In this document: in pieces, positions 13,331 through 38,120 of the stretch
How positions within the stretch are numbered: the first letter of the stretch is position 1
Layout: every line of letters begins with the position of its first letter
Assembly (NCBI GenBank): GCA_003213165.1
Contig: QCNO01000006.1
Coordinates: forward strand, 1-41,995
Reading direction: 5' to 3'
Source of the DNA: OCS155 cluster bacterium AG-426-D23
Lineage (GTDB): Bacteria; Actinomycetota; Acidimicrobiia; Actinomarinales; Actinomarinaceae
Length of the DNA stretch: 41,995 nucleotides
Notes under the pieces: model-generated
Seen by the model: the letters and a program-made list of their open reading frames with translations, nothing else
The model's database searches: none
What the model was told of the DNA's origin: nothing
Position numbers and translations under genes: made by a program

Positions 13331-13404
13331 GGGCGCTTAGCTCAGTCCGGCAGAGCGCTTCCCTTACAAGGAAGAAGTCACAGGTTCAAATCCTGTAGCG
13401 CCCA
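13331..13404 (+). tRNA. tRNA-Val(UAC)
   Basis: A complete cloverleaf. The acceptor stem GGGCGCT pairs with AGCGCCC, the D arm is GCTC/GAGC, and the anticodon stem CTTCC/GGAAG encloses loop CTTACAA (anticodon TAC). The T arm ACAGG/CCTGT has loop TTCAAAT, and the discriminator is A. CCA is not encoded. It is the intact anchor of the repeat array downstream. Confidence 0.96.
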
Positions 13405-13422
13405 CAAGGGTTTTTCAGAAAT
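13358..13422 (+). repeat. att-like repeat copy 1 (inside tRNA-Val)
   Basis: A 65-bp segment starting in the anticodon stem and running 18 bp past the tRNA end (through ACAAGGGTTTTTCAGAAAT). It recurs exactly at 14614-14678, and its first 50 bp recur at 16137-16186. The position over the anticodon-to-3'-end half of a tRNA is typical of a tyrosine-recombinase attachment core. Confidence 0.93.
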
Positions 13423-13442
13423 ACAGCAAGAAATAACCCTAC

Positions 13443-13468
13443 CGCACGCACATTACACGCACATTTTT
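13443..13468 (+). repeat. Left paired 11-bp repeats of E1 (arm-type-like site)
   Basis: Two tandem 11-bp units, GCACGCACATT (13444-13454) and ACACGCACATT (13455-13465), lie within a 26-bp sequence found identically and in the same orientation at 14477-14502. It begins about 40 bp after the tRNA end and lies just upstream of the cargo gene. Confidence 0.9.
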
Positions 13469-13482
13469 GAGATAATTATCCT

Positions 13483-14472
13483 GTGAAAGTTTCAAAAGAA
13501 TACAAAAAGACAATTAATAGGAATCCTTTTAATGAAAAATTAATTCATAGATATTATTTGGAATCCTTGTATTTCTTTGAAAACACTATTGATAAATCTC
13601 TATTAATTCCTAAATTAGAAAACCCAAGGATTAAATTTAACAATTTGGCTTTAGTTGTCCCAGAAGATGCAAGAAAAAAAGGATACAGACCCGATTTCAC
13701 TTTATATTTTAAAAACTATCAAAAAGAAGTGCCTGTTGAAGTTAAATGGAAATCGAGTGAATTCAATAAGAGGAATCAAATTGATTATATAAAAAATAAT
13801 AATGGTTTTTTGGTTGTCTTTGAAAATGATTCTAATGTAGATGTTCCAACAGTTGTTATAAACCCAAAAGACTTTCAAGAATGGATGGCTAAAAGAATTT
13901 ATACACTAACTAGAGATTCTCTGAATAGTAAAAATATAGGTGACGCAACCGGTAATAAATGGATAGTCGCATTAAGAGGAGGAACTCCGATGATTAACTT
14001 CAAAAGAATGATGAATGCAACTAACCAAAATTTTTGGGCTTTTAAAAATTCTAAATATGTCACAAACCAAATATTTAATTTACAAAAAAATGACAGTATG
14101 GTTTTTCTGTTCTTTAAAAGCCCAAACACTGGAATGGGTATGACATTAGGTCAACAAAACAAAAAAATAGAGATTCTTGGTTGGGCTGAAGTCAATATTA
14201 TTGAGCCTTACTATATTTGTTTAGAAGGAGAACAAGCGGAGTTTTTTGAAAAGATAAGAAAATCAAATAACCAGATAATTTCTGTTGCTGATAGAAAATG
14301 GGTTCACTTTATTGATTTTAAAATTAACGAATTTAAAGATGGTGTATCTTTAGTAAGAAAAAGAGGAGACTTAGACAGCTTCTTGGTTAATTCAAGTAAT
14401 CAAGGTGGAGCTTTAACATCAATACCTCAAAATATCTATGAAGATTTAATTTCATACATTAAAACTCAGTAA
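13483..14472 (+). CDS. Predicted PD-(D/E)XK nuclease with EVE/PUA-like reader domain
   Basis: A 329-residue protein not matched to a named family. The N-terminal half contains a PD-(D/E)XK-type signature: RPDFTLYF (Pro70-Asp71), a short hairpin, then PVEVKWK (Glu86, Lys88), preceded by a helix with Glu27. The second half, from Trp160, resembles EVE/PUA-like modified-base readers: WIVALRGG, FWAFKNS, a basic/GD-like turn before a hydrophobic strand (KNDSMVFLFF), and GWAEV. A nuclease fused to an EVE-like domain suggests a modification-dependent (type IV) restriction enzyme. This is a function inferred from motifs. It starts on GTG without a clear ribosome-binding site. It is the only gene of E1 and is framed by identical repeat pairs. 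Confidence 0.65.
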   Translation: MKVSKEYKKTINRNPFNEKLIHRYYLESLYFFENTIDKSLLIPKLENPRIKFNNLALVVPEDARKKGYRPDFTLYFKNYQKEVPVEVKWKSSEFNKRNQIDYIKNNNGFLVVFENDSNVDVPTVVINPKDFQEWMAKRIYTLTRDSLNSKNIGDATGNKWIVALRGGTPMINFKRMMNATNQNFWAFKNSKYVTNQIFNLQKNDSMVFLFFKSPNTGMGMTLGQQNKKIEILGWAEVNIIEPYYICLEGEQAEFFEKIRKSNNQIISVADRKWVHFIDFKINEFKDGVSLVRKRGDLDSFLVNSSNQGGALTSIPQNIYEDLISYIKTQ

Positions 14473-14476
14473 TTTT

Positions 14477-14502
14477 CGCACGCACATTACACGCACATTT
14501 TT
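14477..14502 (+). repeat. Right paired 11-bp repeats of E1 (arm-type-like site)
   Basis: An exact 26-bp copy of 13443-13468, again as two 11-bp tandem units (14478-14488, 14489-14499). It starts 4 bases after the TAA of the nuclease gene and 136 bp before the tRNA copy. The 111 bp between it and the tRNA copy hold no gene. Confidence 0.9.
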
Positions 14503-14613
14503 TTAAAAAACAAATGGTACAGCCTCATATCTTCTAGTAATACCTGATATAAGCCTTGTTTTTATTGAAGTTGTAATTTGAGAACCTCTGATACTCTCTA
14601 GTATTTAATCGTT

Positions 14614-14678
14614 CTTCCCTTACAAGGAAGAAGTCACAGGTTCAAATCCTGTAGCGCCCACAAGGGTTTTTCAGAAAT
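14614..14678 (+). repeat. att-like repeat copy 2 (tRNA-Val 3' part)
   Basis: An exact 65-bp copy of 13358-13422, lacking the 5' half of the tRNA, so it is not a functional tRNA gene. It is interpreted as the attR of E1 and at the same time the left junction of the next interval. Confidence 0.93.
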
Positions 14679-14715: not shown

Positions 14716-16128
14716 ATGAAAATCAAATTAATTTTATTACTTATTTTTCTAATTTCTTGTGGTTCAGAAACATCTACTGAAAATTTTAATCAGGTCAATA
14801 ATGAAGAAGATGAGTACTTGGAAGAAGAGTACGAAGAGGATGATGGAGAAGAGTACGAAGAGGATGATGGAGAAGAGTACGAAGAGGATGATGGAGAATC
14901 ATTATATGATGAATACGGGGAATGGGATAAAGGTTCAACGTATTTTGACACCTCTTCATCAACAAGTACTGGATGGTATATGGGTCAAGGAACAGATCGT
15001 GAAGAGCACGTCCATGAAGGTATGCAGACCTTAGATGGAGGATTTATAGCCATTGGTCATCACTGGGAAAAAGAGGAAGACCCAACGGGATTTACAGATA
15101 TGATCATTTTAAAAACCGATTCTAAAGGCAATGAGTTGTGGCAGACAATTATTGGAACTCCAAACAAGTTTGATGTAGGTTATGCAGTGAATGAATTATC
15201 CGATGGGTATGTTGCCAGTGGAGGACTTTATAAAGATGGATTTCAAAAAAGTGCAATTGTAAAACTTGATTTTAATGGAAATATAATATGGCAGAAAATA
15301 TTTACACATGATGGTGTTGGTGGAATTAGAGGGATAGAAGTTCTAAATAATGACGAAATAGTCGTTACTGGATACAAAGAAGGAGATGAAGAAGGGTTTT
15401 TGTTCATATCTGATGGATCAAAAGGTTTTATAACGAAAATGTCAACAACTGGTGAAGTAATTTGGGATAAAGACTTATCTGCTATGCAAGGCACAAAAGT
15501 TAAGCAAACATCTCAAGGCGGATTTGTTGTCGGATCTGTTGAGTGGGTTGATGTAGGTTTAAATGCATCAATGCATTATTTAGACTCAAATGGAAATACA
15601 CTCTCAATTAAATTATTCGGGGGCAACAATAACGTGCAATTGTTTGACATGGACATTACGAGCAATGACTATGTTGTGTTTACAGGACATACAACTGGAT
15701 ACCAGACTGCAAATTGGGATTGTATTGTTATGTTAATTGATGACCAAGGAAATGAAGTTTGGAAAAATATCTTTGGTAATCCAAGAGGTTATGATCCCAA
15801 ATATATTCTTGATGAATGTTATGGGGTCAGAGAAACTTTAGATGGTGGATTTGTAGTAACTGGTGGTACCGGTGATCACTCAGATTATTTTGGTACAGGG
15901 CATCCAAACGGTACATCTGACGATTGGAAAGTTTTGTTATCTGAGTTTGATAAAGATGGCAACATGACATCTATTAATGTTTTTGGTGGTGGTTTCGATA
16001 AAGGAAATGATGCTGGAGAATTTATTGATGTAACGTCAGATGGTGGATATATTATTTTTTCAGACACCGATTCCAAAGGGTCAAAAGGACCAAATAATTT
16101 TGGTTTTTTATATATTAAAAATCCTTAA
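14716..16128 (+). CDS. Acidic-linker beta-propeller lipoprotein
   Basis: A 470-residue predicted lipoprotein. The signal is MKIKLILLLIFLISCGSE with lipobox LISC (Cys15). A strongly acidic Glu/Asp/Tyr linker (residues about 30-70) includes three perfect 24-bp DNA repeats. The rest consists of repeating blocks of about 45-60 residues with the pattern DGGF-(I/V)-GH/GG, then (I/V)-LK-D--GN--W, seen at least five times, as in extracellular beta-propeller-type repeat proteins. It is probably surface-exposed, with a binding or adhesion role at most inferred. It is the sole cargo between tRNA-Val copies 2 and 3. Confidence 0.75.
   Translation: MKIKLILLLIFLISCGSETSTENFNQVNNEEDEYLEEEYEEDDGEEYEEDDGEEYEEDDGESLYDEYGEWDKGSTYFDTSSSTSTGWYMGQGTDREEHVHEGMQTLDGGFIAIGHHWEKEEDPTGFTDMIILKTDSKGNELWQTIIGTPNKFDVGYAVNELSDGYVASGGLYKDGFQKSAIVKLDFNGNIIWQKIFTHDGVGGIRGIEVLNNDEIVVTGYKEGDEEGFLFISDGSKGFITKMSTTGEVIWDKDLSAMQGTKVKQTSQGGFVVGSVEWVDVGLNASMHYLDSNGNTLSIKLFGGNNNVQLFDMDITSNDYVVFTGHTTGYQTANWDCIVMLIDDQGNEVWKNIFGNPRGYDPKYILDECYGVRETLDGGFVVTGGTGDHSDYFGTGHPNGTSDDWKVLLSEFDKDGNMTSINVFGGGFDKGNDAGEFIDVTSDGGYIIFSDTDSKGSKGPNNFGFLYIKNP
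14824..14895 (+). repeat. Three perfect 24-bp tandem repeats in lipoprotein linker
   Basis: The 24-bp unit at 14824-14847 is repeated exactly at 14848-14871 and 14872-14895, encoding EEYEEDDG three times. The perfect identity suggests recent slippage and length variation among relatives. Confidence 0.95.
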
Positions 16129-16518: not shown

Positions 16519-16893
16519 TTAGTTTAATCCTGCTTTAAAAGTTCTAAACTTTGGTCCCATAGCAGCTAAGTTTTCTTTCATTTCATCTGATACGTCACCC
16601 AAAATTGTCATATTTTCAAAAGTTGTAATTTCACGAAATTTTAAATTTACTGGAGTTCCTATTGCTTTAGTTGCTATCTCTTTAAAACTCTCAGCATTAT
16701 CTAATTCTTCAATCAATGTCGCTGTATTTGTTTCCTTATCAATATACCATTCAAACTTCTTGAGACCTTCTACTCCTAAGCTTTCAATAAATTGGCATTG
16801 CTCATTTTCGATAAAATCTATAAATTCATCGGCTGATTCATAGCTCACATCAATAATAACTCTGAGTGATCCGCTGTCTTTATGTAATTCCAT
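16519..16893 (-). CDS. Small dimeric alpha/beta-barrel-like protein
   Basis: A 124-residue cytoplasmic protein with no signal or membrane span. Residues about 9-90 follow the pattern of antibiotic-biosynthesis-monooxygenase-like ferredoxin folds: a strand (LRVIIDVSY), an acidic helix (DEFIDFIENE), FEWYID with NTATLIEELDNAESF, then KFREITTFENMTILG. The family includes monooxygenases and many proteins of unknown role. An AAGGAG site lies about 8 bases upstream of the ATG. It is the second gene of a two-gene minus-strand operon, 14 bp after its partner, which has a similar size and may share the fold. Specific activity unknown. Confidence 0.55.
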   Translation of the reverse strand: MELHKDSGSLRVIIDVSYESADEFIDFIENEQCQFIESLGVEGLKKFEWYIDKETNTATLIEELDNAESFKEIATKAIGTPVNLKFREITTFENMTILGDVSDEMKENLAAMGPKFRTFKAGLN

Positions 16894-16907
16894 TTATACT
16901 CCTTTTC

Positions 16908-17189
16908 TCATATACTAGCTTTTACTAAACCTTGAAACTCATGAACAATTTGTGCACCAATTTCATCTGTTGCGTCTTTTCTATATTCTTCTAACTTTGA
17001 TTTGTACTGTTCATATTTTTCCTGTGAACTATAAACTGCTACGGAACCGTGTGTAGCAGCATCTATTTCATACCATGTAACTTCCTCTGCAGCACCTTCA
17101 TCATTTCTTAATTGTTCCAAGCCTTCTTTCATAGCATCCCAATCTATATCATTTGGGTGATTCCAGACTGTGTTTACAACATATTTCAT
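16908..17189 (-). CDS. Small hypothetical protein, possible dimeric barrel fold
   Basis: A 93-residue soluble protein beginning MKYVVNTVWNHPNDIDW, with a helix (MKEGLEQLRNDEG), two strands (VTWYEID and GSVAVYSS) and a long C-terminal amphipathic helix. The strand-helix-strand order resembles EthD or monooxygenase-like ferredoxin-fold proteins, but no diagnostic residue is recognised. An AAGGAG sequence lies about 6 bases before the ATG, one of the strongest ribosome-binding sites in this region. It is the first gene of the pair, between tRNA-Val copies 3 and 4. Confidence 0.55.
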   Translation of the reverse strand: MKYVVNTVWNHPNDIDWDAMKEGLEQLRNDEGAAEEVTWYEIDAATHGSVAVYSSQEKYEQYKSKLEEYRKDATDEIGAQIVHEFQGLVKASI

Positions 17190-17239
17190 TAATACTCCTT
17201 AATTATTGCAACATTTATTTTAGCTTAAAATGATGAGCA

Positions 17240-17295
17240 CTTCCCTATGAGGAACAACTCACATATTAAAATCCTAAAGCACCTACAAGTGTTTT
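17240..17295 (+). repeat. Decayed fourth tRNA-Val 3' copy
   Basis: Hand alignment of 17240-17295 with tRNA-Val from CTTCCC onward gives about 44 matches over 57 columns with one gap, retaining CTTCCCT, GGAA, TCACA, AATCCT and ACAAG-GTTTT in order. The preceding GAGC also matches the D arm. It reads as an old attachment-site remnant that marks the far end of the array. Confidence 0.7.
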
Positions 17296-37380: not shown

Positions 37381-37453
37381 GGCCAGATAGCTCAGTCGGT
37401 AGAGCACTTGTCTGAAAAACAAGGGGTCGGCAGTTCGATTCTGCCTCTGGCCA
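37381..37453 (+). tRNA. tRNA-Phe(GAA)
   Basis: Acceptor GGCCAGA/TCTGGCC, D arm GCTC/GAGC, anticodon stem CTTGT/ACAAG with loop CTGAAAA (GAA), T arm GGCAG/CTGCC with loop TTCGATT, discriminator A. Its 3' part is duplicated 620 bp downstream. Confidence 0.97.
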
Positions 37454-37455
37454 CA
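37409..37455 (+). repeat. att-like repeat copy 1 (inside tRNA-Phe)
   Basis: A 47-bp segment from the anticodon stem (TGTCTG) to two bases past the discriminator, identical to 38074-38120. Confidence 0.95.
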
Positions 37456-37481
37456 AGGTTTTTAAACAAATTAAAGACTTT

Positions 37482-37504
37482 TGTCACAAAAACTGTCACA
37501 AAAC
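37482..37504 (+). repeat. Left paired repeats of the tRNA-Phe element
   Basis: TGTCACAAAAAC (37482-37493) followed directly by TGTCACAAAAC (37494-37504), about 29 bp after the tRNA end. The same unit recurs at 37940. Interpreted as arm-type recombinase sites. Confidence 0.88.
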
Positions 37505-37551
37505 TTCTCGACAGACACTTGTAATAGCCAATAAAGTAATATATTCAATAT

Positions 37552-37935
37552 ATGAAGAAACACTTTCTGTACTACACAATATTTGGAATCTCATTTTTTT
37601 TATTTGGCTTGGTTCAAAGCTACATTAGACCCAGTTATGTTGGTGGAAACGACCTTGTAATTTATTTTCTTGGAGTAGCTCCTAACTTCTTTCCAGGCAT
37701 CGGCATACCAAGTTTTTTTTATGTAAGCATTCCAGAGGTATTTAAATCTAATTCATCAGTTTACAAAAATAGATTGAAGTGGTCAGTAGTGATTTCTATG
37801 GTTGGCCTAATAGGTAACGAATTCATTGCAAAATACACACCTGGAAGAGGTGTTTTTGATTGGAATGATATACTATGGACTCTTATAGGTGGATCATTGT
37901 TTATTCTGGTTAACAAGTTAGTTGAAAAAGAATAA
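37552..37935 (+). CDS. Small VanZ-like membrane protein, sole cargo
   Basis: 127 residues with about four hydrophobic segments (YYTIFGISFFLFGLV, LVIYFLGVAPNFFPGIGIPSFF, WSVVISMVGLIGNEFI, ILWTLIGGSLFILV). NEFIAKYTPGRGVFDWNDILWTLIGG resembles the E-x-x-x-R-x-x-D-x-x-D-I-x-x-N-x-x-G pattern of VanZ-like membrane proteins, but length and certainty are low. It starts on ATG, 47 bp after the left repeat pair, without a clear ribosome-binding site; its TAA is followed after 4 bases by the right repeat pair. Function unknown; phage-exclusion or envelope roles would suit a mobile single-gene cargo, but that is conjecture. Confidence 0.6.
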   Translation: MKKHFLYYTIFGISFFLFGLVQSYIRPSYVGGNDLVIYFLGVAPNFFPGIGIPSFFYVSIPEVFKSNSSVYKNRLKWSVVISMVGLIGNEFIAKYTPGRGVFDWNDILWTLIGGSLFILVNKLVEKE

Positions 37936-37939
37936 AAAC

Positions 37940-37960
37940 TGTCACAAAACTGTCACATAC
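37940..37960 (+). repeat. Right paired repeats of the tRNA-Phe element
   Basis: TGTCACAAAAC (37940-37950) followed by TGTCACATAC (37951-37960), the same orientation as the left pair. It starts 4 bases after the cargo stop codon and 134 bp before the tRNA copy. Confidence 0.88.
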
Positions 37961-37987
37961 TCACAAAAGAAGTCTCTATTATTTACT

Positions 37988-38021
37988 GCTCATTGCGTTT
38001 TAGAGCCTCTCACAAATGAGC
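37988..38021. repeat. 7-bp inverted repeat in the right end of the tRNA-Phe element
   Basis: GCTCATT (37988-37994) and AATGAGC (38015-38021) with a 20-base spacer lie between the right repeat pair and the tRNA copy. It could be an accessory-protein site in an attachment region or a weak hairpin. The remaining bases to 38073 show no other clear signal. Confidence 0.4.
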
Positions 38022-38073
38022 GATAATTCACAACGAATAAGTTAAAATGATGAAAGGACAAATGGTTTGCCTC

Positions 38074-38120
38074 TGTCTGAAAAACAAGGGGTCGGCAGTT
38101 CGATTCTGCCTCTGGCCACA
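38074..38120 (+). repeat. att-like repeat copy 2 (tRNA-Phe 3' part)
   Basis: An exact 47-bp copy of 37409-37455 without the 5' half of the tRNA; not a functional tRNA. Interpreted as the distal attachment junction. Confidence 0.95.

Follow-up and report, generated by a model that had tools for sequence, protein, structure and literature searches.

How a free-living bacterium with a genome of ~1 Mb, nearly without transposons and integrases, gains genes is an open question. At the tRNA-Val locus analysed here, one gene lies between an intact tRNA and an exact copy of part of that tRNA. The locus belongs to Candidatus Actinomarina, a very abundant, tiny-genomed, low-GC marine actinobacterium. 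The window, i.e. the whole stretch of DNA that was analysed (contig QCNO01000006.1, 41,995 nt), comes from a 964-kb assembly that is 86% complete; it contains five tRNAs (Val, Arg, Lys, Asp and Phe), and downstream of its tRNA-Val array lie genes for a DegT aminotransferase, a GDP-mannose dehydratase and a glycosyltransferase. By these sugar-envelope genes and the five tRNAs, the locus is apparently the fGI1 glycotype island of Lopez-Perez et al. 2020 (PMC7771536). The comparison set comprised 42 genomes of the genus (completeness 51-94%), most of which provided tRNA-Val loci; tRNA genes of the window were called with ARAGORN, positions in tRNA-Val were numbered from t1 onward and the flanks of displaced fragments were aligned. 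The side downstream of tRNA-Val is a hypervariable island in which relatives have no common flanks, so that a clean empty-site comparison between relatives could not be made.

The initial annotation described an intact tRNA-Val followed by one gene and an exact 65-bp copy, and all three are in place: ARAGORN calls the tRNA at 13331-13405, the two copies of the direct repeat (13358-13422 and 14614-14678) are 100% identical and a single ORF lies between them. The parts of the cassette are as follows.

13331..13405, forward strand: intact tRNA-Val(tac), the target gene, restored by the attL of the element
13358..13422, forward strand: attL copy of the 65-bp repeat, made of a 50-bp tRNA-derived core (t28-77) and 15 bp of common element left end
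13444..13465, forward strand: left pair of 11-bp repeats (GCACGCACATT ACACGCACATT), proposed P'-arm integrase arm-type sites
13483..14472, forward strand: cargo gene, 329 aa, GTG start
14478..14499, forward strand: right pair of 11-bp repeats, exactly the left pair, proposed P-arm arm-type sites
14500..14613, forward strand: conserved element right end, GATACT/CTAGTATT-rich, common to cassettes with unrelated cargo; likely an accessory or excisionase binding region
14614..14678, forward strand: attR copy of the 65-bp repeat

The length given for the repeat is exact, but not all of it belongs to a common core. Position 28 of the tRNA, where the anticodon stem begins, is the first base of the repeat, and the inverted anticodon-stem arms CTTCC-CTTACAA-GGAAG lie at the left end of the attL core. 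A third tRNA-Val copy agrees with it over no more than 50 bp (t28-77), beyond which the DNA is different; the recombination core is thus placed at 50 bp, the last 15 bp look like the left end of the element, and the reading of all 65 bp as common core was dropped. A decayed fourth copy lies further on. The first description of the repeats had missed a 26-bp repeat, composed of two 11-bp units, that directly flanks the 329-aa gene (13443-13468 and 14477-14502) and occurs nowhere else in the window genome.

The 329-aa cargo has no Pfam, PADLOC or PDB match, no significant PHROGs match and a weak match to a phage endonuclease (E=0.19); an RPDF...EVKW motif, picked out by eye, suggests a PD-(D/E)xK nuclease. 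A single-sequence AlphaFold model (pLDDT 31) was worthless and was set aside. No relative was found in phage or plasmid records, nor beyond the genus among 296 genomes of the class. The gene is present in 2 of the 42 genus genomes, the other being G062 (92% aa identity), where it likewise lies at tRNA-Val; the arrangement is therefore not fixed in all relatives, whereas fixation was what the initial annotation had named as refuting its proposal.

That annotation saw a single element at tRNA-Val; the element stands, but the scope was underestimated, since it is one of many such cassettes. Further sites in the window are listed below.

14716..16128, forward strand: second cassette, with one lipoprotein-like gene of 470 aa
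16137..16186, forward strand: third tRNA-Val copy (t28-77, 100%), which marks the 50-bp core
17235..17295, forward strand: decayed fourth tRNA-Val copy (t23-84, 77%), beside 93-aa and 124-aa genes
37381..37454, forward strand: tRNA-Phe(gaa), called with ARAGORN, target of the window's second cassette of paired-repeat design
37480..37503, forward strand: left repeat pair of the tRNA-Phe cassette (TTTGTCACAAAA ACTGTCACAAAA)
37552..37935, forward strand: cargo of the tRNA-Phe cassette, 127 aa, weak VanZ-like match
37936..37957, forward strand: right repeat pair of the tRNA-Phe cassette (AAACTGTCACA twice), with the motif of its left pair
38074..38119, forward strand: tRNA-Phe 3' fragment (p29-74), the attR of the tRNA-Phe cassette

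The tRNA-Phe cassette (37455-38119; 619 bp) repeats the design of the first one, with a single gene and matching pairs on both sides. The second cassette at tRNA-Val has no paired repeats and is either older or of a different class. Its lipoprotein-like gene, in which 24-bp in-frame tandem repeats (14823-14898) encode an acidic EEYEEDDG motif, shows 97.5% aa identity with a gene adjoining a tRNA-Val fragment in another species, and the DNA after the third tRNA-Val copy also follows such a fragment in another species. The 124-aa/93-aa gene pair (16519-17295) adjoins a better preserved tRNA-Val fragment in L039, L044, L066 and L069, suggesting a second chromosomal site. Of the tRNA genes examined in the window genome, none but Val(tac) and Phe is accompanied by displaced copies of its own 3' part; this restriction, together with recurrence in dozens of independently assembled genomes, indicates that the arrangement is not due to chance. 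As to an assembly artefact or a simple tandem duplication of the tRNA end, repeats can mislead assemblers and the contigs of several relatives stop near the copies, yet dozens of independent assemblies with conserved ends and differing cargo contradict this account, which merits next to no credence.

Across the genus, 68 displaced tRNA-Val fragments were found, 30 of them beginning exactly at t28, and 34 cassettes are bounded by two sites. One anatomy, which reads core, ~20 bp, 11-bp tandem pair, cargo, the same pair, ~110-bp conserved end and core, is shared by 19 cassettes from 15 species, which measure 377-5212 bp (median 1191) and mostly carry one gene. The smallest (L172:8090-8466; 377 bp) encodes a 56-aa membrane-protein-like product between perfect matching repeat pairs. 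A tandem pair occupies both expected positions in 20 of the 34 bounded cassettes, against a background of 31 such pairs in 4000 random 45-bp windows. Left and right pairs have the same sequence in 18 of these 20 and in one further cassette with a weaker left pair, and the two whose pairs differ between the sides look like fusions. In 15 of the 34, the window's second cassette included, a matching pair is absent; these are decayed, chimeric or of another class. The geometry is constant, the left pair lying mostly +18 to +23 after t92 and the right pair -133 to -139 before t28, and the ~110-bp right end is conserved among cassettes of unrelated cargo. Matching or similar pairs also occur at tRNA-Phe in G010 and G021 and at tRNA-Ile in G034.

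The sequence of the 11-bp pair is specific to each cassette. Left and right ends of one cassette match at 17.2 of 18 positions versus 13.0 of 18 between cassettes, and none of 20,000 shuffles of right ends among cassettes reached the observed match, a result that holds with 12 non-redundant cassettes. Examples are ACACGCACATT in the window and CACCCACAAAA, AACCCCACAAA, CCCCTACATTT, AAAGACACCTA, AAAGACACACA, AACCGAACAAA, TGACCCACATT and AACAGAACAAT elsewhere. In the G062 counterpart of the window cassette, all four units have A in place of the G of ACACGCACATT (giving ACACACACATT), a concerted change that would be expected if one protein had to read them all. The left half of the core varies with the type of right end (CTTCC, CTTTC, CATTC or CTTAC) and the core is invariant from t32 onward, which places the crossover to the right of t31.

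In G018 (L051:9506-9716, reverse strand), ~54-bp tandem repeats of element left-end sequence fill a gene-free space between two tRNA-Val fragments. A tRNA-Val fragment directly behind a tRNA-Ile gene was seen at L048:9585-9780 (reverse strand) and at L061:7491-7687; it adjoins AGTCACC-type repeats, as if a tRNA-Val site had been carried into the tRNA-Ile array. The tRNA-Val core is also found in L077, L108 and L112, contigs binned as Flammeovirgaceae, Flavobacteriaceae and Bacteroidia that are probably mis-binned Actinomarina DNA.

By their layout, the paired repeats are most likely integrase arm-type sites, because the same organization is seen in a phage that encodes an integrase and has an attP core derived from a tRNA. 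In this phage, ctQWt234, a tRNA 3' part forms the core, an annotated integrase lies ~100 bp off, and identical 11-bp pairs occur at -128/-117 and +156/+167. The layout is not universal, since phage 8P (tRNA-Val core and integrase) has tandem repeats on each side that differ in sequence between the sides. In the excised circle of a cassette, the pairs would lie about 120-145 bp from the anticodon loop on one side and 75-100 bp on the other, so that matched 11-bp pairs would flank the core as arm-type sites do in an attP. Comparable are the arm sites of lambda Int and the putative ones that occur in pairs in the attP of actinobacteriophages (PMC4880445, PMC10865867). Taken with the exact repeats and the restored tRNA, the matched pairs at both ends bear out the proposal of a site-specific, integrase-less element at tRNA-Val. 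Could the pairs instead serve replication initiation, packaging or regulation, the tRNA core alone specifying integration? Iteron-like pairs are also typical of replication initiators. The fixed distances on both sides of the core in the circle, common to unrelated cargos, and the identical layout around the core of an integrase-bearing phage make this decidedly unlikely.

Cassettes differ widely in cargo: Type II and Type I restriction-modification systems, HNH and NucS-like nucleases, T5orf172, DNA methylases, a trypsin-like protease, an HSP70/MreB-like ATPase, lipoproteins, an FkbM methyltransferase and a beta-lactamase-fold protein. Some are shared by divergent hosts. A restriction-modification cassette shows 99.4% identity over 2186 bp between two species whose nrdJ genes are 78.8% identical; t28 is the exact start of the block, and the cassette occupies first place in the array of one species and second place in that of the other. 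The window's tRNA-Phe cassette and its counterpart in G012 agree at 617 of 619 positions (nrdJ 76.7%), and identity stops at the end of the fragment. A cassette encoding a 173-aa protein is 97-99% identical across species with nrdJ identities of 81.5-93.5%; relatives of this gene (63-90% aa identity) occur in further genomes with neither a tRNA fragment nor a repeat pair detected in their vicinity, which suggests capture from chromosomes. As judged from these alignments, transfer of cassettes between species, bounded exactly by the repeats, is demonstrated.

No recombinase is encoded in the window cassette, where the 329-aa gene is the sole ORF between the repeat copies. A tyrosine recombinase beside a tRNA-Val copy, which the initial annotation proposed to look for across the genome, was not found: the assembly has two PF00589 genes, both on other contigs. 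Tyrosine-recombinase genes usually number two per genus genome and at most three, and serine recombinases (PF00239) are absent from the 42 genus genomes, the window assembly included. By number, not phylogeny, the two PF00589 genes are read as XerC and XerD. They are the sole PF00589 recombinases in the window genome and in most genus genomes, and could on that account be the enzymes that recombine the cassettes. Xer recombination takes place at dif-like sites, which lack arm sites; the cassette core, in contrast, is a tRNA anticodon stem-loop, and the arm-like pairs differ by cassette, so that a role for the host enzymes appears very improbable.

Integrases beyond the usual two were seen in G034, where one lies beside tRNA-Leu, and as remnants in G002 (at a tRNA-Phe fragment) and G001 (at a tRNA-Ile fragment); none was found at tRNA-Val in the genus genomes. 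The one in G034 is a full-length 336-aa integrase inside a tRNA-Ile element (L145:5844-10882) that also contains restriction-like and methylase genes and tRNA-Leu and is bounded by two identical complete tRNA-Ile copies. The remnants, of 73 aa (L147:1487-1708) and 145 aa (L146:8422-8859), abut tRNA-Ile and tRNA-Phe fragments, respectively, and some of the cassettes, at least, may therefore derive from elements that bore an integrase. It could be argued from these remnants, and from the decayed tRNA copies, that the cassettes are immobile relics of old integrase-bearing islands that spread only by ordinary homologous recombination at tRNA repeats, which would agree with the usual view of such islands as subject to homologous replacement of segments. 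Cassettes that are 99.4-99.7% identical between species with the repeats as exact bounds speak against it, as do intact matched pairs over many unrelated cargos and the concerted change in four units, which imply continuing selection for recognition; on balance, the relic account is unlikely.

A helper integrase with matching arm sites was sought in viral_contigs with DNA patterns (Val core, strict and loose; window arm pair; right end; left end; Phe core) and protein queries (the 329-aa cargo and the G034 integrase); no Actinomarina attP and no relative of either protein was found there. Matches to the loose core fell on tRNA genes of phages or on unrelated phage DNA lacking matching paired repeats, and were rejected. 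As the genomes are incomplete (51-94%), an assembly gap might conceal a resident helper. For the SAG AH-324-A03, the fGI1 paper reports a prophage of 24 kb in tRNA-Val (PMC7771536).

Collectively, the cassettes are probably attP-only mini-elements integrated in trans, and the window unit a non-autonomous integrative cassette. It would consist of a complete tyrosine-integrase attP (tRNA-Val anticodon-stem core, arm pairs and accessory region) and one cargo gene. An integrase supplied by a temperate phage, a satellite or a transient element would bind the four arm units and the core and insert a 1256-bp circle at the anticodon stem-loop of tRNA-Val, by a recombination that leaves the tRNA restored. 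Each insertion would push the older copy downstream, and repeated insertions would build the array. Since the arm sequence varies between cassettes and is constant within one, each cassette probably answers to its own helper class. Excision would additionally need a directionality factor, which counts against the scheme. The earlier view that mobilisation must occur in trans is thus well supported, while the integrase responsible and mobility at the present day are matters of inference.

The cassettes are about the smallest unit that phage-type site-specific recombination could move, and their sharp boundaries mark each transfer. Defence genes (restriction-modification, HNH and other nucleases) are frequent among their cargo. 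As the arm sequence is cassette-specific, each cassette predicts the binding site of its helper, which can accordingly be sought directly in viromes and single-cell data.

Among known systems, tyrosine-recombinase elements that integrate at tRNAs share the tRNA 3' repeat and the restored tRNA with the window cassette, which lacks an integrase of its own. Phage satellites (PICI, PICMI) likewise take helper functions from trans, but no hallmark gene (primase, packaging or capsid redirection) is present in the window cassettes or annotated cargos. CIMEs are att-flanked DNA without recombination genes, thought to be deletion derivatives of integrative elements. The window cassette fits that description; however, CIMEs move by accretion beside a related ICE, whereas no ICE adjoins the window cassette, its neighbours being single-gene cassettes and envelope-sugar genes with the integrase genes on other contigs, and units of the window type are ~1 kb long, hold one gene and have arm sites that differ between cassettes. 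Integron cassettes and CALINs likewise form integrase-less arrays of small one-gene units that need a tyrosine recombinase in trans (PMC11389934). The Actinomarina site, in contrast, resembles a phage attP, since paired arm-like repeats stand to either side of a tRNA core in the circle, and the newest units enter at the tRNA; by site anatomy, what is shared is a tRNA 3' part plus an element-borne end and not an attC, and at the Pfam level the only IntI candidates in the window genome are the two Xer-like PF00589 genes. Tycheposons are also marine, inserted at tRNAs and cargo-bearing, but span 4-200 kb and, in Methylophilaceae, contain a tyrosine recombinase (PMC10872708), whereas Actinomarina cassettes measure 0.4-5.2 kb (1.2 kb in the window) and have none. 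Closest are the fGI1 cassettes of Lopez-Perez et al. 2020 (PMC7771536), of the same order and apparently in the same island, for which the paper describes insertion at tRNAs, direct repeats of a tRNA part and transfer between genera. Its text does not mention integrases, and neither single-gene size, paired arm-like repeats, a conserved end, cassette-specific arms nor trans mobilisation was found in the sections consulted; within these bounds, tRNA-repeat cassettes in the island are known and their integrase-free, arm-coded, single-gene anatomy is new. It is tempting, if somewhat speculative, to go further and regard them as a distinct system of attP-only, usually one-gene cassettes, in which self-matching arms would be the address for one of many helper integrases. 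Through it, nearly integrase-free streamlined genomes would swap single genes, many of them for phage defence or the cell surface, in an integron-like way with phage-type att sites, and genes from Actinomarina chromosomes would be picked up and shared between species at tRNA-Val, tRNA-Phe and tRNA-Ile.
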